A DNA stretch of 64,000 nt from a virus. Positions 6,599 to 15,806 of the stretch are shown here, one piece after another (position 1 is the stretch's first letter; the number at the start of each line of letters is the position of its first letter). The position numbers and the translations under genes were made by a program. Where the stretch lies: positions 1-64,000 of the IMG/VR virus record IMGVR_UViG_3300030328_001638, one strand, 5' to 3'. Under the pieces are notes generated by a model. That model saw only the letters and a list, made by a program, of their open reading frames with translations, ran no database searches and had not been told where the DNA came from.

Positions 6599-6787
6599 TT
6601 ATTTATTTTTACAGCCAAAATTATTTGCGTAGTTAGCCATTTCTCTTACATGAGTAGAATACTCATCAGTATTACTCATAACATGGGAAGCTGCACTACA
6701 CGCATCTTTAAAACCGTTTTTCTTAGCCCATCTTGTGAACTTGCCTCGGTTTTTCTTTTTTATTTGTGGAAAAGGTTTTTGAGCCAT
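6599..6787 (-). CDS. Small basic conserved-type phage protein
   Basis: A 62-aa protein beginning MAQKPFPQIKKKNRGKFTRW and containing CSAASHVMSN and a C-terminal NNFGCKNK. It is Lys-rich with two Cys and several Ser/His. It is co-directional with, and 1 base from, the 68-aa gene upstream. Small KKKNRGKFT-type proteins are common near structural genes of Bacteroidota phages, but I know no function. A DNA-binding or virion accessory role is only a guess from charge. Confidence 0.55.
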   Translation of the reverse strand: MAQKPFPQIKKKNRGKFTRWAKKNGFKDACSAASHVMSNTDEYSTHVREMANYANNFGCKNK

Positions 6788-7503: not shown

Positions 7504-7968
7504 TTGAGAAGAAAAAACTACGATCGTAAAGTTCCTACACATAACTATTTAAAATATTGGCGCATTATAAGGTATTGGGCTAAAGCTAAATACGGATTTA
7601 CTACACCTGATTTAGATATGATGCTGTTTTTATATAGTGAAGATTACTTTAATAAGACAAAATTTAAAGAATTTGAAGAAGTAATGTCGTGGGATATTAA
7701 TCGGTTTAACTCATTGCTTAGAGATGGATGGATACATGTATGGCGTAAAAGAAGTGGTAAACAAACTACATTATATGAGCTTTCGTTTAAGGGTAAGATG
7801 GCTATTAATACTATTTATAGAAAATTAAATGGGGAAGAGATTGCGGAATCTCCTAATATAAATCCTTTATTTAAAACTAATGTTAGTTATATGGATAAGG
7901 TTTATAGACAAAAAATAATAGAAATGAATGAGTTTATAAAACAACAACGACATCACGCTCCTGAATAA
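7504..7968 (+). CDS. Putative winged-helix protein
   Basis: A 154-aa protein, the only plus-strand gene between 1 and 10.9 kb. The start is a TTG at 7504, with no better ATG nearby. The middle (about residues 38-110) reads as a winged-helix fold: PDLDMMLFLYSEDYFNKTKF, then a recognition-helix-like EEVMSWDINRFNSLLRDGW, then a beta wing (HVWRKRSGKQTTLYELS). MarR-like proteins with this layout bind DNA. Its 3' end overlaps the groES 3' end by 35 bases on the opposite strand. A transcriptional regulator of the late or chaperonin genes is inferred from fold and position. Confidence 0.6.
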   Translation: MRRKNYDRKVPTHNYLKYWRIIRYWAKAKYGFTTPDLDMMLFLYSEDYFNKTKFKEFEEVMSWDINRFNSLLRDGWIHVWRKRSGKQTTLYELSFKGKMAINTIYRKLNGEEIAESPNINPLFKTNVSYMDKVYRQKIIEMNEFIKQQRHHAPE

Positions 7969-8191
7969 TAGTAACAGATTCGTTTCCTAATAACATTTCA
8001 TGACCTGCGTTTCTATCGTAATAAATTACATCGCTGGTATTTATAACCTCCACAGAAGATCCAGGAGTTATAACCTCTCCTTTTCTATATCTAAAACTAC
8101 TCACATCTTCAGCTGAAAGTAATATTCCTGATTCTGTTTTTAATTCTTCTTCTATAGGTTTAACAACTATAAACTTTCCGATTGCTTTCAT
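7934..8191 (-). CDS. groES: GroES-type co-chaperonin
   Basis: An 85-aa Cpn10-like protein, shorter than bacterial GroES (about 97 aa). The N-terminal beta strand (KAIGKFIVVKPIEEE) is followed by the mobile-loop region with a GILL tripeptide (the GroEL-contact IVL motif in bacteria), then RKGEVITPG and the GHEMLLGNESVTIIQERDVV strand that forms the barrel. The dome loop looks shortened. It lies 9 bases downstream of groEL, so the order is groEL-groES, the reverse of the usual bacterial operon. It would cap the phage GroEL or the host GroEL for folding of virion proteins. Confidence 0.88.
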   Translation of the reverse strand: MKAIGKFIVVKPIEEELKTESGILLSAEDVSSFRYRKGEVITPGSSVEVINTSDVIYYDRNAGHEMLLGNESVTIIQERDVVVVL

Positions 8192-8200
8192 TTTATTTTT

Positions 8201-9826
8201 TTATTTAGCTCTTTGATGAGTAACAATAGCGTTTGTACTTAAGATAGTAGTAGCTACACTTATAGCATTGCTTAATGCATGTTTAGTTACTTTAAGTGGA
8301 TCAATAACTCCTAACTTAAACATATTCCCATACTTTTCATTTTTTACATCATACCCTAAAAATTCTTCTTCTTCTAATATTTTTACAGGAATATTGCTTT
8401 CCTTAAGTATGTCTTTATAATCTAACCCTGCGTTATTTAAGATTTGGACAAGGGGGGCTTTCAGAGCTTCCATCAATATATGTTTCGCTGCTTTGTCATT
8501 TTTATTATTCTTGTTTCCGCAGTCACAGTCCTGTAATGAGGTAGAGGCATTCCATAAAGCGTATCCTCCTCCAGCGATAATACCTTCTTCAAGTGCTGAC
8601 TTGACAGCACATACCGAGTCATCGACTCGGTCAAATTTTTCTTTTTGCTCTACATCACTATTACCTCCTACATATATACATCCTATTCCTCCTGATAGAC
8701 TTGCTATTCTTTCATTTAAGAATGTTTTTTGATTTACATCTGTAGTTGTTTGTTGTTGAACCTTAAGTTCTGCTATACGATTATCTATTTCTTCAGTACG
8801 AATATTCTCTTTTAATATAACTGTAGATTGTTGGCCTACTATTATTTTGTTTGCATGTCCTAAATCATTAGGAGTAATTAAACTTAAGTCGTCTCCTGTC
8901 TTTTCAGAATAGTATTTAGCTCCTACTGCTAAAGCAATATCTTGCATTAACTCATGTTGTTTGTATCCAAACTGCGGAGGTTGTATATTACAAAACTTTA
9001 AACCATTACGAACTACATTAGCTGCAAGGGTATTTATTACATTGGTAGTACACGTTCCTATTATTAATAATTTTTGATTATTATTAATGACGGGTTTTAG
9101 TACATTTTCAATTTGAAGTATATTGCTTATTTCACTATCACAAACTAAAACCTTAACATCATCTAATATACACTCATCTTTTCTTTGGTCATTAATAAAT
9201 AAATTAGAAGTGTATCCTCTATTTATTTTAATTCCGTTTGTTATCTCAGAATAAGTTTCTGATGTCATAGATTTCTCTACCGTTACTACTCCGTCTTTTC
9301 CTACCTTGTTATATGCCTGGGCAATAATCTTTCCTAACTCTTTATCATTGTTAGCCGAAACAGAAGCTACATCTAAAAGTTTCTTTTTATTTACTTTCTG
9401 TGATCCTTCTTTTAAATACTTAAATACTCTTTCTTTGTTTTCATTAACAAACCTAATGACCTCAGTAATATTGTGGGTATCATTTATAATCTCTTGACCT
9501 GCTTTAATAATTGCTTCAGTCAATACAATAGCTGTAGTTGTTCCATCACCCGCTGAGTTAGCAGTTCTATTAGCTGCATCCTTCATCATCTGTATTGCAA
9601 GATTAGATACAGGGTCGTCTAACTCAATCGACCTCGCTACCGTCACTCCGTCTTTGGTAACTGTAATATTATTAGTATGTTCTGGGGATTCTATTAAAAC
9701 TGTATTACCCTCTGGGCCGAGTGTACTTTTTACAGCTTTAGATATTATGGAAATTCCTTCAATTAGTTTTTGTCTTCCTTCATCATCAAAGCAGACATCT
9801 TTTGGTATATAGCCTGAAACGCTCAT
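8201..9826 (-). CDS. groEL: GroEL-type chaperonin (Cpn60)
   Basis: A 541-aa full-length group I chaperonin. Motifs are in the canonical order: TLGPEGN (about 35-41), TKDGVTVA (57-64, with Asp60 matching the ATPase Asp52), GDGTTTA (93-99, with Asp94 matching Asp87), RVDD then EEGIIAGGG, and a C-terminal GVIDPLKVTKHAL. The C-terminus lacks the GGM-rich tail and ends THQRAK. The lid region carries an extra Asn/Lys/Asp-rich Cys-containing insert (QDCDCGNKNNKND). It forms an operon with groES. Its upstream region has a TATATTTG box and iteron-like repeats. It is probably used to fold capsid, terminase or other virion proteins. Confidence 0.97.
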   Translation of the reverse strand: MSVSGYIPKDVCFDDEGRQKLIEGISIISKAVKSTLGPEGNTVLIESPEHTNNITVTKDGVTVARSIELDDPVSNLAIQMMKDAANRTANSAGDGTTTAIVLTEAIIKAGQEIINDTHNITEVIRFVNENKERVFKYLKEGSQKVNKKKLLDVASVSANNDKELGKIIAQAYNKVGKDGVVTVEKSMTSETYSEITNGIKINRGYTSNLFINDQRKDECILDDVKVLVCDSEISNILQIENVLKPVINNNQKLLIIGTCTTNVINTLAANVVRNGLKFCNIQPPQFGYKQHELMQDIALAVGAKYYSEKTGDDLSLITPNDLGHANKIIVGQQSTVILKENIRTEEIDNRIAELKVQQQTTTDVNQKTFLNERIASLSGGIGCIYVGGNSDVEQKEKFDRVDDSVCAVKSALEEGIIAGGGYALWNASTSLQDCDCGNKNNKNDKAAKHILMEALKAPLVQILNNAGLDYKDILKESNIPVKILEEEEFLGYDVKNEKYGNMFKLGVIDPLKVTKHALSNAISVATTILSTNAIVTHQRAK

Positions 9827-10379: not shown

Positions 10380-10530
10380 ATAAAAATTTTTCAGATACTC
10401 AGAGGTATAGGGTTATTATATAATATACGAGTGGCCCTCCCCCAAAAGAAAGTCATATTTTTTATCAGATTGAATAGGATTCCTTTCGGTTTCTCCAAAC
10501 TTTTTACCTTTTTTTCTCAGGAAGGGATGA

Positions 10531-10577
10531 GTCCTGCTCTCCTCTCTCTGTCCTGCTCTCTCTCCTGCTCTTGCTCT
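10531..10577. repeat. CT-rich imperfect repeat (TCCTGCTCTC units)
   Basis: Within the 10358-10919 gap, a pyrimidine-rich tract repeats TCCTGCTCT/CTCTCTC units three to four times on the plus strand. This composition is unlike the AT-rich surroundings. The only ORF crossing it, about 80 codons on the plus strand, has low-complexity content (SLSCSLSCSCS) and is judged not a gene. It could be a protein-binding or unwinding element of the control region. Confidence 0.4.
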
Positions 10578-10598
10578 CTTGATTGCATAGGTATAACT

Positions 10599-10683
10599 AC
10601 CTTCCCTTACCCCATACCCCTTACCCCTACCTACCTTCCCTTAAAAGAAAGCAAGTTAATGAGGGATGCTTAACCTTCCCTTA
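10599..10683. repeat. Three direct repeats ACCTTCCCTTA upstream of early promoter
   Basis: The 11-mer ACCTTCCCTTA occurs exactly at 10599-10609, 10633-10643 and 10673-10683, with further related CCCTTACCCC/ACCCCTTACC text between the first two. The copies are on the same strand, spaced 34 and 40 bases, and lie 150-240 bases upstream of the putative early promoter at 10839. Regularly spaced direct repeats ahead of an operon suggest operator or activator sites. The 10358-10919 gap otherwise holds no gene I can support. Confidence 0.5.
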
Positions 10684-10838
10684 ATCACACAACGACACAC
10701 AAAAAGAATAAACAATTTCCAGTGTATATTATATCAAGAAAATAATACCTAAAATACTGATCCTGAATGCGTTGCAGAGGTTACAGCTCGGAAAAATATA
10801 TGTGTGATAATATAGCATTGAAATTAGTGCGTAAAATG

Positions 10839-11146: not shown

Positions 11147-11647
11147 ATGAATACTAAAATGAACACTTTAATGACAAAAATTACGAATGGCGATATGGCA
11201 AGATTATCAATCATATTGCACAGACATATCGTTGTGAATAATCCTCAAGATTGTACAGAGGGATTAGAAGAATTAAATTCTAAACTAAAACAGATGGTTG
11301 AGAGCAATACTCATTCTCACTACTCCCTTGATATTCAAGGTTGTTCTGATGCACACAAGTTGCACGAGGGACAAACCATATCATTGGGTTTAGGAGTGAA
11401 TAGATTAGAGGAGTTAGAGAAGGAATTTGAAGAATGGATGAATGAGAATGTTTATCAGAATGTGGATGGTAGTTTCTCAACACAAGATGCACAATGGAGA
11501 AATAGAATCCAAACAAAGAATGAGTTGAAAAAATACTTTCTACGAGAGTTTAGAGAGTTGGAAGAGATAAGCGATAGAGAGAAAAATTACAATCCTAATG
11601 AAAACTATATAAGGGGAGGATTTAATCCATTTAAAACTAAATTATAA
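11147..11647 (+). CDS. Early protein, unknown function
   Basis: A 166-aa acidic, mostly helical protein. It begins MNTKMNTLMTKITNGDMARL, has a His/Ser segment (VESNTHSHYSLDIQG) and a charged helical second half (NRLEELEKEFEEWMNENVYQ). Its stop codon TAA (11645-11647) forms the 5' strand of stem I of the hammerhead ribozyme that follows. Translation through the stop would therefore disturb that fold. No conserved domain is recognised. Confidence 0.65.
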   Translation: MNTKMNTLMTKITNGDMARLSIILHRHIVVNNPQDCTEGLEELNSKLKQMVESNTHSHYSLDIQGCSDAHKLHEGQTISLGLGVNRLEELEKEFEEWMNENVYQNVDGSFSTQDAQWRNRIQTKNELKKYFLREFRELEEISDREKNYNPNENYIRGGFNPFKTKL

Positions 11648-11704
11648 CTGATGAGGATTCAAAATCCGAAACAAGATGATTGTGAAATTCTCTTGTATTA
11701 TAAT
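11641..11704 (+). ncRNA. Hammerhead ribozyme, type I (HHR1)
   Basis: All elements of the family consensus are visible. The core CTGATGA is at 11648-11654. Stem II GGAT/ATCC (11655-11658 with 11664-11667) has a 5-nt loop and the required G10.1-C11.1 pair, followed by GAAA (11668-11671). Stem III ACAAGA/TCTTGT (11671-11676 with 11691-11696) closes a 14-nt loop. The cleavage-site base is A11697 (GUA triplet). Stem I is 7 bp, ATTATAA (11641-11647) with TTATAAT (11698-11704), and open-ended, hence type I. Cleavage is predicted after 11697, 25 bases before the ATG at 11723, separating the upstream message from the downstream one. Sequence-based only; activity is not tested. Confidence 0.9.
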
Positions 11705-11722
11705 AAAAATAAAACAATAATT

Positions 11723-11941
11723 ATGAAAACCGAACACTTAACTTATGAATGGGAAATCTCTCCTAACAATATTGTAGAGATTGACTATACCTACTCTCAA
11801 GAGAGTGGAGACTATCTACAACCACCTTACGAAGAAATTGAGATAGACAGAATGACTTTAAATGGAGATGATGTAACAGATAGATTACACGATACATTTG
11901 AGTATGAAATTATAGAAGAAATTACTAACCAAACACTTTAA
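11723..11941 (+). CDS. Small acidic protein downstream of HHR1
   Basis: A 72-aa protein from the ATG at 11723 (MKTEHLTYEWEISPNNIVEI). An earlier in-frame ATG at 11651 lies inside the ribozyme core and would encode a basic extension unlike the rest, so the 11723 start, preceded by AAAACAATAATT, is preferred. The protein is rich in Glu/Asp/Tyr, with no recognised domain. It is followed 3 bases later by the 155-aa gene. Confidence 0.65.
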   Translation: MKTEHLTYEWEISPNNIVEIDYTYSQESGDYLQPPYEEIEIDRMTLNGDDVTDRLHDTFEYEIIEEITNQTL

Positions 11942-11944
11942 ATT

Positions 11945-12412
11945 ATGACAAAACAAGAATTTTTAAACAGGGCGAAAGCTATTAATGTAAAAGAATCACG
12001 AGGACACGATGCACCTTCTTATGAATGGGACATCAAATTTGACAATGTCAAAGTATGCAATTGTTGGGATGATTCTTATGGTGGAGAATTAGAAATAAAT
12101 AATTATAGCCATCATTCTATTGAGAAGATTTATTCAACAATAGACAAAGACTCTTTATGGGATGAAAAATACCAATGGACTACTACACTTGAGTTATTAA
12201 TGTCTGAGTTGCTTGATAACCATTACCGAGACAAAGATGCTAAAAAAGGAGTAGTGTTCACTAATGGGAAAATTAGAGGATACAAACACACCATCCCAAC
12301 ATTAATAAAAAGAGGAGAAGGTTTCTTGATTCAGGACATTATTGATTCTGTCAAGGATAAATCTACCATTGTAAATCACGAATATTTAACTAACCTAAAA
12401 TTTAAAATATGA
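11945..12412 (+). CDS. Early protein, unknown function
   Basis: A 155-aa soluble mixed-charge protein. Visible features are VKVCNCWDDSYGGELEINNY (one C-x-C), an aromatic/acidic centre, and a Lys-rich C-terminal half with KRGEGFLIQDIIDSVKDKST. It overlaps the next gene by 4 bases (ATGA-type), so they are probably translationally coupled. No catalytic motif is identified. Confidence 0.65.
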   Translation: MTKQEFLNRAKAINVKESRGHDAPSYEWDIKFDNVKVCNCWDDSYGGELEINNYSHHSIEKIYSTIDKDSLWDEKYQWTTTLELLMSELLDNHYRDKDAKKGVVFTNGKIRGYKHTIPTLIKRGEGFLIQDIIDSVKDKSTIVNHEYLTNLKFKI

Positions 12413-12642
12413 ATCCATTTAAAATAACACCGAGTAAAATCTCAGATTCAGTACAGAAGAATATCTCAATTCAATTGGAGTTTGCTATCAATCAAATTGC
12501 AAGTGATTTGGATATAAATACTTTTGATGAGATTGATTTAGCATTGACTATTGTAAATGACATTGATGCCTTGAAAAAAACTATTGTTCACGAGATTATG
12601 AAGCAATGTCATCAAGAGTATAATAGGAGAAAAGGATTCTAA
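12409..12642 (+). CDS. Small helical protein, unknown function
   Basis: A 77-aa protein, MNPFKITPSKISDSVQKNIS then an acidic stretch (DLDINTFDEIDLALTIVNDI) and a basic end (HQEYNRRKGF). Predicted all-helical and soluble. It is translationally coupled to the gene upstream. It is followed by a 92-bp gap holding the conserved hairpin element at 12656-12705. Confidence 0.6.
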   Translation: MNPFKITPSKISDSVQKNISIQLEFAINQIASDLDINTFDEIDLALTIVNDIDALKKTIVHEIMKQCHQEYNRRKGF

Positions 12643-12655
12643 CAATCCCTTACTC

Positions 12656-12705
12656 AACACCTTGCCTTGCATAGAGATATGCGAGGTTTTGGTGGTAGTA
12701 GGCAA
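12656..12705 (+). ncRNA. Conserved GNRA-hairpin RNA element, copy A
   Basis: The stem CCTTGCATA (12665-12673) pairs with TATGCGAGG (12678-12686) around a GAGA tetraloop, directly followed by TTTTGGTGGTAG (12687-12698). An outer pairing TTGCC (12662-12666) with GGCAA (12701-12705) is possible. Copy B at 16093-16133 has a different stem sequence but the same stem length, a GNRA loop and an identical 3' tail GGTTTTGGTGGTAG, so the stem covaries. The element ends about 30 bases before the methyltransferase ATG at 12735. Identity unknown: leader element, protein-binding site or uncharacterised ribozyme. Confidence 0.6.
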
Positions 12706-12734
12706 TAGTGCCTTAACAATTAAATAACAAAACA

Positions 12735-13433
12735 ATGAAACTATTAGAATTATTTAGTGGCTCTCGTTCAATCGGCAAAGTAGCTGAAGCAAGAGGACAC
12801 GAGGTATTCTCGGTTGATAATGTAGCTTATCCAAAAACTAATTGGGTAGGAGACATTTTAGATTGGGACTACCGATTAAATGAAATGGAAGTAGGAGAAT
12901 TAGATGAATTCTACATTCCTGATGTCATATGGGCATCTCCACCTTGCACCGACTTTTCGGTGGCTTGTATTGGTCGTAAATGGGTCAAAGGACACGAATT
13001 TATGCCGAAGGACAATCAGCTTTTAGGAATCAAGATCTTGGAAAAAACTTTAGAAATTATAAAATTTTACCTTGAGAAGAATCCTGAATTAATTTGGTAC
13101 ATAGAAAATCCAAGAGGTAAAATGCGTAAAGCACCTCATTTCCAACATATTTATCATAAAAGAGAAACCATTACATATTGTCAATATGGGGACTCCAGAA
13201 TGAAACCTACTGATATCTGGACCAATGATATTGGATGGAAACCAAAACCTATGTGTAAAAATGGGGACACTTGTCATACTCCTGCACCGAGAGGTTCACA
13301 GACAGGTACACAAGGACTTAAAGGTAATCACGAACGAAGCAAGATACCATCTGACTTATGTCAGGAGATTATAGAATCAGCAGAGTTTGAGGTTAACTTT
13401 AAGGAAAACATATTACTAACAAAAACTAAATAA
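12735..13433 (+). CDS. C5-cytosine-methyltransferase-like protein
   Basis: A 232-aa protein with a shortened DNA (cytosine-5) methyltransferase core. Motif I is ELFSGSRSIG (5-14), motif IV has the catalytic Cys in SPPCTDFS (Cys71), and motif VI is seen as IENPRG. The usual target-recognition domain between motifs VIII and IX is very small. It has a Cys/His segment (KNGDTCHTPAPRGSQTG). Such proteins methylate phage DNA to evade restriction. The gene is preceded by RNA element A and followed 2 bases after its stop by the next ATG. A second methyltransferase-like gene lies at 24230-24853. Confidence 0.75.
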   Translation: MKLLELFSGSRSIGKVAEARGHEVFSVDNVAYPKTNWVGDILDWDYRLNEMEVGELDEFYIPDVIWASPPCTDFSVACIGRKWVKGHEFMPKDNQLLGIKILEKTLEIIKFYLEKNPELIWYIENPRGKMRKAPHFQHIYHKRETITYCQYGDSRMKPTDIWTNDIGWKPKPMCKNGDTCHTPAPRGSQTGTQGLKGNHERSKIPSDLCQEIIESAEFEVNFKENILLTKTK

Positions 13434-13642
13434 CTATGAAAAAACCGAAATTTAGGTTGTGGTGGTTTACAGATTGCAATAAAAAAGATGAGAGATTGCA
13501 TTCTAAAGACTTTAAAACTTTAATAGAAGCTAAACAATTTATCAAAGACAATCAAGATTGTGTGTTTGGTAAATCTATAAGAGATGTTGTAAATAAATCT
13601 TTTATCAAACCATCATTACTAACTAAAACTAAATAACTATGA
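13412..13642 (+). repeat. Repeated gene-junction sequences flanking the 66-aa gene
   Basis: The junctions at 13412-13440 and 13616-13642 share the pattern ATTACTAAC(A/T)AAAACTAAATAACTATGAA, differing in one base. Each copy covers the last codons of one gene (both proteins end LTKTK), the stop, the leader and the ATG of the next. Shorter versions (AACTAAAACTAAATAATTATG) occur before the ATGs at 14032 and 14247. The 66-aa gene is thus bounded by nearly perfect direct repeats, which could allow cassette gain or loss by recombination. Confidence 0.6.
13436..13636 (+). CDS. Small basic protein between junction repeats
   Basis: A 66-aa protein, MKKPKFRLWWFTDCNKKDER then a mixed Lys/Asp region (LIEAKQFIKDNQDCVFGKSI) and end SLLTKTK. 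It is probably a small soluble alpha/beta fold. Its last residues and leader are duplicated from the preceding gene's end, so it looks like an inserted cassette. No function can be assigned. Confidence 0.55.
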   Translation: MKKPKFRLWWFTDCNKKDERLHSKDFKTLIEAKQFIKDNQDCVFGKSIRDVVNKSFIKPSLLTKTK

Positions 13643-14019
13643 AGAATACAATAAAAGATGTTCAACAAGCTGAATGCAATTTAGAGCCATTACATTGTCT
13701 CAATTGTGATAGTACAGAAGTTACATATCATCAATATATAGGAGATGCATATTGTTCTGATTGTGGAGAGTGGCAAGAGGACATAAGCGATAGAGAGAGA
13801 TTAAGAAAAGAAAACTTAATTGAAGCTATTGTAAGTTTAAATGATGAGGATAGCGTACATTTTTGCAATAAATGGGATTTAGCTCATTATGGCGAAGAAG
13901 TTAGTGCGACAGACCATTTATATAACTATGCAACAAATGTTGTAGAGGGAGAGTGCAAAACTCTTGAAGATATAAAGGAAATGGAAAACTATTTAAAGAA
14001 ATATAAATCACTTAACTAA
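13639..14019 (+). CDS. Zinc-ribbon protein
   Basis: A 126-aa protein with a clear zinc-ribbon knuckle pair: HCLNCDSTEV (C-x2-C) and AYCSDCGEW (C-x2-C), about residues 19-45, as in small Zn-ribbon regulators and transcription factors. The rest is acidic and helical (ETSxxNDEDSVHFCNKWDLA type). It might act as a small transcription or replication accessory. It is followed 12 bases later by a 39-aa membrane protein. Confidence 0.7.
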   Translation: MKNTIKDVQQAECNLEPLHCLNCDSTEVTYHQYIGDAYCSDCGEWQEDISDRERLRKENLIEAIVSLNDEDSVHFCNKWDLAHYGEEVSATDHLYNYATNVVEGECKTLEDIKEMENYLKKYKSLN

Positions 14020-14031
14020 AACTAAATAATT

Positions 14032-14151
14032 ATGAAAATCAGAGAATTCATACAACATATTATCAACAATCCTTTTCAGGTATTTGCTGAAGTATGTTTT
14101 TTAATCATATTGTTTTTATGCTTACTATGTGTATTGCATATATTTCAATAG
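14032..14151 (+). CDS. Small single-TM protein (39 aa)
   Basis: The frame reads MKIREFIQHIINNPFQVFAE, then a hydrophobic helix (VCFLIILFLCLLCVL type) and ends HIFQ. It has the AACTAAATAATT leader of its neighbours. A short membrane protein of unknown role is likely, for example an early inner-membrane factor. It is followed by a perfect hairpin at 14158-14172 and the second hammerhead. Confidence 0.6.
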   Translation: MKIREFIQHIINNPFQVFAEVCFLIILFLCLLCVLHIFQ

Positions 14152-14157
14152 TGGAGT

Positions 14158-14172
14158 GGGGACTTTGTCCCC
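14158..14172 (+). other. Perfect hairpin directly upstream of HHR2
   Basis: GGGGAC (14158-14163) pairs with GTCCCC (14167-14172) around a TTT loop. It abuts the 5' strand of stem III of HHR2 (14173-14177), so it could stack coaxially on the ribozyme. After cleavage it would sit at the 3' end of the upstream message and could protect it from exonucleases. There is no U-tract, so it is not an intrinsic terminator. Confidence 0.6.
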
Positions 14173-14221
14173 TCTGTCGTAAGGTGTGTGCCTTGCCTGA
14201 TGAAGCGAAAGCAGAAACAGA
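14173..14221 (+). ncRNA. Hammerhead ribozyme, type III (HHR2)
   Basis: Order along the RNA: stem III 3' strand TCTGT (14173-14177); cleavage base C14178 (GUC triplet); stem I hairpin GTAAGG/CCTTGC (14179-14184 with 14191-14196, one G-U pair, loop TGTGTG); core CTGATGA (14197-14203); a short stem II GC/GC with GAAA loop (14205-14212); GAAA (14214-14217); stem III 5' strand ACAGA (14217-14221). Stem III pairs exactly and is open-ended, hence type III. The weak point is A14204/A14213, where most natural hammerheads have a G-C pair, so it may cleave slowly. Predicted cleavage is after 14178, about 68 bases before the ATG at 14247. Confidence 0.78.
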
Positions 14222-14246
14222 AATAAAAACTTAAAACTAAATAATT

Positions 14247-14744
14247 ATGGGACAATATTATATGCCGATAAACAAGACCAAAAAAGAGTATCTAAATCCT
14301 CATACTTTTGGCAATGGACTTAAACTAATGGAATTCACAAGTGATGGAAGAGGAGTGTTACAAGGACTATCTCTACTACTTGCTAATGGTAATGGTAGAG
14401 GGGGTGGAGACCATCCAAGTGGAGACAAGCTGATAGGATCATGGAGTGGAGACAACATCACAATTGAAGGAGATTATGCTGACAATTCACTATGGGATGT
14501 TATAGCTAAAGATGAGGACAAGAAGAAACCACAATGGAAAGATGTAAGCATACCTACATACAGACTCTTACTGCAAAATACTTGGGTTGGTAGAGAGATG
14601 GAAGAAAGAATACTTAAAAGTGGTACACAATTTATGATGCAAGATGAGAAAAAGTTAATGGAAGAGTTATTTCCAAAAGCTTGTGTAGAAGGAGATTTGC
14701 GACAGAAATTTGACTTTGTAGAAAAAGGACAATCTGATGAGTAA
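14247..14744 (+). CDS. GQYY-type early protein, unknown function
   Basis: A 165-aa protein with the N-terminal MGQYYMPINKTKKEYLNPH and GNGLKLMEF, a Gly/Asp/His centre (GNGRGGGDHPSGDKLIGSW) and IEGDYADNSLWD. A family of bacterial and phage hypothetical proteins starting MGQYY and containing GDYAD is known to me, without an assigned function. The last five codons form part of stem I and the core of hammerhead HHR3, and the stop (14742-14744) lies in stem II. Confidence 0.7.
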   Translation: MGQYYMPINKTKKEYLNPHTFGNGLKLMEFTSDGRGVLQGLSLLLANGNGRGGGDHPSGDKLIGSWSGDNITIEGDYADNSLWDVIAKDEDKKKPQWKDVSIPTYRLLLQNTWVGREMEERILKSGTQFMMQDEKKLMEELFPKACVEGDLRQKFDFVEKGQSDE

Positions 14745-14788
14745 AGGTTTAAACACCTACGAAACACCTCAATTTGAGGTGTAATTGT
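14729..14788 (+). ncRNA. Hammerhead ribozyme, type I (HHR3)
   Basis: Stem I 5' strand is ACAAT (14729-14733). The core CTGATGA is at 14734-14740. Stem II starts G14741 and ends C14760 (GTA/TAC, two-base bulge, then GGT/ACC). GAAA is at 14761-14764. Stem III is a perfect 8-bp hairpin ACACCTCA/TGAGGTGT (14764-14771 with 14775-14782, loop ATT). The cleavage base is A14783 (GUA), and stem I 3' strand is ATTGT (14784-14788), extendable by two G-U pairs. All invariant bases fit. The 5' part is inside the coding sequence of the upstream gene, and cleavage would fall 24 bases before the ATG at 14808. Confidence 0.88.
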
Positions 14789-14807
14789 TTAATTTAAAAA
14801 TAAAATT

Positions 14808-15011
14808 ATGAGTAATTTAAGCTATTGCAGATTTCAAAATACTGCACGAGATTTAAGAGATTGCCTAAACGCAATTGAAGATGGTCAGATAGATGACTTA
14901 TCATTTGAGGAATTCAAAGGAATACAACAAATTCTGCAGGATTGCGAAACCTTAATGTTTATGAAGGAAGAGATTGAAGATGAGATAGGAGTAGAGCCAT
15001 CCAGAAACTAA
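14808..15011 (+). CDS. Small acidic protein downstream of HHR3
   Basis: A 67-aa protein, MSNLSYCRFQNTARDLRDCL then an acidic helix (EEFKGIQQILQDCETLMFMK) and end GVEPSRN. The start MSNLSYCRFxNTxxDLxDC is a pattern I associate with short conserved phage and plasmid proteins of unknown function. It is the first gene after the predicted HHR3 cut, with a TTTAAAAATAAAATT leader. Confidence 0.6.
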   Translation: MSNLSYCRFQNTARDLRDCLNAIEDGQIDDLSFEEFKGIQQILQDCETLMFMKEEIEDEIGVEPSRN

Positions 15012-15731: not shown

Positions 15732-15806
15732 TGCGAGGTAGAGCAGTCAGGTCAGCTCGTTGGGTTCATATCCCAAAGGTCGCAGGTTCAAATCCTGCCC
15801 TCGCAC
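15732..15806 (+). tRNA. tRNA-Met (anticodon CAT)
   Basis: A full cloverleaf. Acceptor TGCGAGG (15732-15738) pairs with CCTCGCA (15799-15805). The D-arm is GAGC/GCTC. The anticodon stem TTGGG/CCCAA has loop TTCATAT (anticodon CAT). The T-arm is GCAGG/CCTGC with loop TTCAAAT. The first base pair is T-A rather than the C-A mismatch of bacterial initiator tRNA, so elongator Met is favoured; a lysidine-modified Ile2 tRNA cannot be excluded. CCA is not encoded. The apparent discriminator base is C, which is unusual. Confidence 0.9.

Follow-up and report, generated by a model that had tools for sequence, protein, structure and literature searches.

What becomes of the messenger RNA of a phage operon whose gene junctions carry self-cleaving ribozymes? 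The question is raised by a 64,000-base stretch of viral DNA (the window), positions 1-64000 of a linear 67,139-base IMG/VR virus record, in which an earlier note had proposed that three hammerheads split one polycistronic RNA. The phage was assigned to the Flavobacterium/Cellulophaga phage group. Its large terminase matches phages of Flavobacterium (Elemovirus), Cellulophaga, Tenacibaculum and Maribacter; with the terminase of MW202828, the Manatee Spring podovirus contig, it shares 72% identity. GroES-like and GroEL-like genes (window 7934-9826, minus strand) are annotated in MW202828 and in Elemovirus too.

The region around the ribozymes is a rightward operon whose small genes run on into an ERF recombinase, a DUF3799 nuclease-like gene and a primase. 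By gene content alone the operon would be classed as early, and by gene layout the three hammerheads appear to belong to it. The small-gene block is closed by a tRNA with a CAU anticodon (window 15732-15806, plus strand), and Elemovirus phages have a tRNA-Met near the corresponding operon. Upstream of the operon lies a low-complexity pyrimidine-rich stretch (10500-10690) with CCCTTACC/CTTCCCTTA repeats. The count returned by a sigma-70 promoter scan was not above that of shuffles, and a plain search for TTG/TANNTTTG over the region from 9 to 29 kb gave a single match (at 12497), which is not evidence of function.

Detection and anatomy of the three hammerheads

When a strict descriptor was run over both strands of the 64 kb, two elements alone were returned: the type I hammerheads HH-A (11640-11706, plus strand, C3 at 11648) and HH-C (14726-14792, plus strand, C3 at 14734). 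With a looser descriptor, 100 shuffled genomes gave a total of three type I, two type II and one type III matches. The type III hammerhead HH-B (14170-14228, plus strand) escaped the descriptor on account of a short stem II that has an A.A mismatch at 10.1/11.1. Covariance models were built from relatives alone, without window sequences (R1: 19 type I elements; R2: 5 type III elements). Given that the calibration was short, their E-values are rough: HH-A (E=1.9e-11) and HH-C (E=6.7e-6) were recovered by R1 and HH-B (E=1.9e-13) by R2, and the next-best matches (E=2.6 and 0.07) were at chance level. A core-variant scan of the window found no additional hammerhead. Descriptor and independent models together bear out the original description of three hammerheads of two topologies (I, III, I) within 3.2 kb of the coding strand.

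In HH-A, stem I (11641-11647 with 11698-11704) encloses the core CUGAUGA (11648-11654), stem II (11655-11667), the GAA (11668-11670), stem III (11671-11696) and H17, which is A11697; stems I, II and III have 7, 5 and 6 bp. HH-C is built from stem I (14727-14733 with 14784-14790), the core (14734-14740), stem II (14741-14760), GAA (14761-14763), stem III (14764-14782) and H17 (A14783), with stems of 7, 3 and 8 bp. Minimum-energy folding of either element alone returns the hammerhead fold. HH-B has a stem I of 6 bp with a UGUGUG loop, a stem III of 5 bp, C14178 as H17, and a short stem II made of the A.A mismatch, two G-C pairs and a GAAA loop. The conserved core (CUGANGA and GAA) is intact in all three, as are the three-helix junction, the A15.1-U16.1 pair and an H17 other than G. 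The closing pair of stem II, usually G10.1-C11.1, is standard in HH-A and HH-C and A.A in HH-B.

The same reduced stem II occurs in a related element (L067 in G021, 6668-6726, minus strand) together with a compensatory change in stem I, which argues that the variant is not simple decay. Two further hammerheads (L070:2159-2214 and L105:10714-10771) have U.U at 10.1/11.1, where G-C is normal, and with L067 these make the HH-B stem II look like a tolerated variant. Given the non-standard pair, the rate at which HH-B would cleave is uncertain. The conserved loop II UNANU of the type I relatives and the loop I UGUGUG of the type III elements are no more than suggestive of a tertiary contact between stems I and II.

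Rfam 15 contains no model that detects these elements: no hammerhead was reported in the window at gathering or permissive thresholds (E 10), nor, at the gathering score, in the seven relatives' loci that were scanned. RAGATH-1-hammerhead (RF03152) was the best-scoring Rfam hammerhead for the L141 elements of a distant relative, at 42.0 bits against a gathering score of 56.3, and had no match to the window elements at E 10. Hammerhead_1 (RF00163), which shares the type I topology and core, reached 31.5 bits in one L141 element (gathering score 34) and likewise had no match in the window. This silence, even at permissive E-values, and the mismatch in stem II of HH-B are what could be expected of chance resemblances or dead relics. 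That explanation is hardly credible in view of the independent model E-values, the intact cores and the conservation at protein-anchored junctions described below. On sequence grounds, the three elements are confirmed as genuine hammerheads, far above chance.

One other structured RNA was seen in the operon, in the leader of the methyltransferase-like gene (leader 12642-12734, plus strand). Its fold, found in seven phages, has z of about -2.6 to -4.4 in the six that were folded, with no Rfam match and little covariation by consensus folding. It was considered as an additional hammerhead and rejected, as the fold is not that of a hammerhead. In L146, a hammerhead precedes the methyltransferase in place of this leader structure.

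Conservation in close and distant relatives

The close set comprised 13 genomes, window included, with terminases at least 79% identical; they were picked by protein and not by ribozyme. Hammerheads are present in nine, of which G007 and G008 share all three elements of the window. The other four lack them, among them the closest relative (G011, terminase 87%), in which no p8 orthologue was found either; the ribozymes are thus dispensable. Among the cultured Elemovirus phages, elemoE and elemoB each combine a single type III with a single type I hammerhead; no type I match was obtained in the Cellulophaga phages phi13:2 and phi38:1 or in MW202828.

The HH-C junction could be followed by protein search with p8, the gene that it shares with orthologue loci. 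A hammerhead stands directly after the gene in six of eight distinct orthologue loci; the stem III sequences differ yet stay paired, and in one phage group stem II takes another form at that position. The earlier note had suggested looking for hammerheads at the same junctions in related phages, and at the p8 junction they were found. HH-A could not be anchored in this way, since p1 returned no orthologues in a homology search at E 1e-8.

Two pattern scans of viral contigs added 104 and 13 stretches. Many of the distant examples were selected by hammerhead pattern, and their frequency is not an estimate of prevalence. The descriptor gave 254 hits in 2.2 Mb against 0.2 after shuffling, figures that include some overlapping loci and much pattern-selected sequence. 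A covariation count is in line with retained pairing, but it is partly circular, its sequences having been selected by a pairing descriptor, and was not used as the main proof. In bacterial genomes the pattern had a single match, in Flavobacterium sp. A45. The richest contig (G023) has 14 type I and two further type III hammerheads, 16 on one strand; G025 has 13 and G054 has 10 of type I. In G023, G024 and G054, one gene and one hammerhead alternate over long runs. All hammerheads lie on a single strand in each of the 57 sequences that have two or more (57/57).

The neighbouring genes are variable: 214 protein clusters surround 188 hammerheads, and relatives of HH-B precede unrelated genes. 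Stem I is also more alike within than between genomes (similarity 0.77 vs 0.52), even where stem III is dissimilar. Together with G011, which lacks both the hammerhead and a detectable p8 orthologue, these observations could mean that the elements mainly mark or help the exchange of cassettes of small accessory genes, by offering near-constant homology at junctions, with cleavage secondary or neutral. Recombination alone, however, requires neither that core and pairing be retained while stem III is freely swapped with compensation, nor that the distance from cut to AUG be constrained, and we regard exchange as the main role as unlikely.

Predicted cut sites, message ends and the proposed role

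The predicted cuts fall at 11697/11698 (HH-A), 14178/14179 (HH-B) and 14783/14784 (HH-C), so that the next AUG would come after leaders of 25, 68 and 24 nt, in agreement with the 24-68 bases given before. Hammerhead chemistry produces 5'-OH and 2',3'-cyclic phosphate ends. Upstream of HH-A lies p1 (11147-11647, plus strand, 166 aa, product unassigned), whose UAA stop (11645-11647) forms the final three bases of the 5' strand of stem I and abuts the core. The first gene past the cut is p2 (11723-11941, plus strand, 72 aa), with the 25-nt leader. The HH-A core contains an AUG in the reading frame of p2 (11651-11941, plus strand); a 96-aa form of p2 started there may arise, from uncut RNA only, and the frame may be a coincidence.

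The predicted fragment 11698-14178 (2481 nt) would carry several genes, including the methyltransferase-like gene (12735-13433, plus strand; PHROG 757, E=2.4e-33), so the window itself does not have one gene per message. The following fragment (14179-14783, 605 nt) would carry p8 alone (14247-14744, plus strand, 165 aa), and past the HH-C cut the first gene is p9 (14808-15011, plus strand, 67 aa; PHROG 8760, E=2.5e-13), with the 24-nt leader. Each hammerhead had been placed in a junction; all three do lie at junctions, but HH-C starts before the upstream gene has ended, with the UAA stop of p8 (14742-14744) inside stem II.

These positions follow rules that could be read from the relatives. 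An ORF starting with AUG lies downstream at 176 of 178 unique type I sites, and the AUG follows the cut by a median of 25 nt (18-40 in most cases). The stop of an upstream ORF falls between -70 and +25 of C3 at 161/178, with peaks at -3 (41 cases), +1 (17) and +8/+11 (14). At 163/178, the upstream RNA would end after cleavage in a hairpin whose folding energy is -4 kcal/mol or better. At HH-B, a separate hairpin (GGGGAC-UUU-GUCCCC, 14158-14172, plus strand) lies just 5' of the cut and would serve as the 3'-terminal hairpin of the fragment before it; hairpins also stand upstream of the type III sites in G012, L193, L234 and L164, and are absent at some other sites. A scan for terminator-like structures catches stem III of HH-C. 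The type I leaders, profiled for hammerhead-led genes alone, are rich in A (A-3 at 86%, A-11 to A-13 at 71-80%), which may be a general trait of these phages; the profile matches the initiation signal of F. johnsoniae, where the same leader region promotes initiation (PMC6847099).

The reading that fits this anatomy best is the splitting of the polycistron, and it is strengthened by the strand, junctions, AUG spacing and per-gene runs of the relatives. The polycistronic RNA would cut itself at each junction, probably during transcription, with ends at 11697, 14178 and 14783. Two things would follow from each cut. The next gene would begin its message with a short and unstructured leader rich in A, 24-25 nt long where the ribozyme is type I, such as Flavobacterium ribosomes favour. 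The preceding message would end in a hairpin, supplied by stem III in the type I elements and by the separate hairpin at HH-B, and in a 2',3'-cyclic phosphate. As built-in end-formers, the ribozymes would spare the phage group a promoter and terminator at every gene and still yield near-monocistronic messages. It is thus probable that these hammerheads cut the small-gene operon RNA into fragments and form both the leader downstream and the hairpin upstream. The splitting that the earlier note proposed is thus supported in part: strand, junctions and spacing are observed in the relatives, and the chemical ends are those expected of hammerheads. From the anatomy we infer that cleavage would occur in vivo, with fragments that may be separately stable and a possible benefit for decay or translation.

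At many sites, both type I sites of the window among them, the upstream stop codon shares bases with stem I, the core or stem II, and a further layer of control may be imagined: ribosomes ending the upstream gene might unfold the ribozyme, and cleavage would then occur only when upstream translation is low, tuning the operon. Such a switch would supplement the processing role and not displace it. Compact genomes favour overlap anyway (the overlap counts have no control for packing), and the type III sites show none; we consider the switch rather improbable, if worth bearing in mind. More broadly, and tentatively, the lineage may have replaced the promoters and terminators of individual genes by one hammerhead per gene. 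Given the likeness of stem I within a genome, the messages of one phage would, once processed, tend to have similar beginnings: monocistronic, they would share a genome-specific 5' start (the 3' strand of stem I) and a 3' hairpin, and their release would possibly be gated by translation of the upstream gene.

The cut ends are of the type joined by RtcB, and the segments could in principle be rejoined or circularised, an idea prompted by the clustered hammerheads of PMC3088659. This is very unlikely: the RtcB ligase was absent from 32 of the 33 records searched, the window phage included, and the lone carrier is phi38:1, which has no type I hammerhead. Its absence from the phage and the tested hammerhead-bearing relatives argues against rejoining by a phage-encoded RtcB, and in PMC3088659 such products were sought and none found.

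Precedents and significance

Phage hammerheads had been thought to be reported mostly singly. This does not hold: multiple hammerheads of mixed type in prophages were published by Perreault et al. (PMC3088659) in 2011, clustered or triple, flanking single genes or short blocks. Three tandem arrangements were tested in vitro and one (A. tumefaciens) in E. coli, with cleavage shown, and processing into gene-length mRNAs was proposed. The window resembles these clusters, with several mixed-type hammerheads at the gene junctions of a phage-derived operon (three within 3.2 kb, on the same strand, flanking genes), and taken alone is a further example of a known arrangement. The largest arrangement named in the text of that paper is a triple. 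Unlike those, the relatives described here, phages of the Flavobacterium/Cellulophaga phage group, reach 14 type I and two type III hammerheads per contig, mostly one per gene and at a fixed distance from the AUG. The available text of PMC10085705 places self-cleaving ribozymes near genes of Mu-like phages and near one another; the association is alike, the phages are different, and per-gene arrays are not described in that text. The scale (up to 16 per contig), the one-per-gene spacing rule and the presence in cultured relatives (Elemovirus) look new. No description of this scale, one-per-gene order or strict spacing was found in the literature searched; as most subscription papers lay outside it, this does not prove novelty.

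Such arrays are probably under-annotated, as the Rfam gathering score misses the window and the seven relatives' loci. The function of phage hammerheads has been described as an open question (PMC6155905, PMC10085705). Arrays of up to 16 elements with per-gene runs, set at a fixed distance from the start codon, suggest a definite task in the making of message ends, and the cultured relatives (Elemovirus on Flavobacterium sp. BAL314) make this role directly testable.
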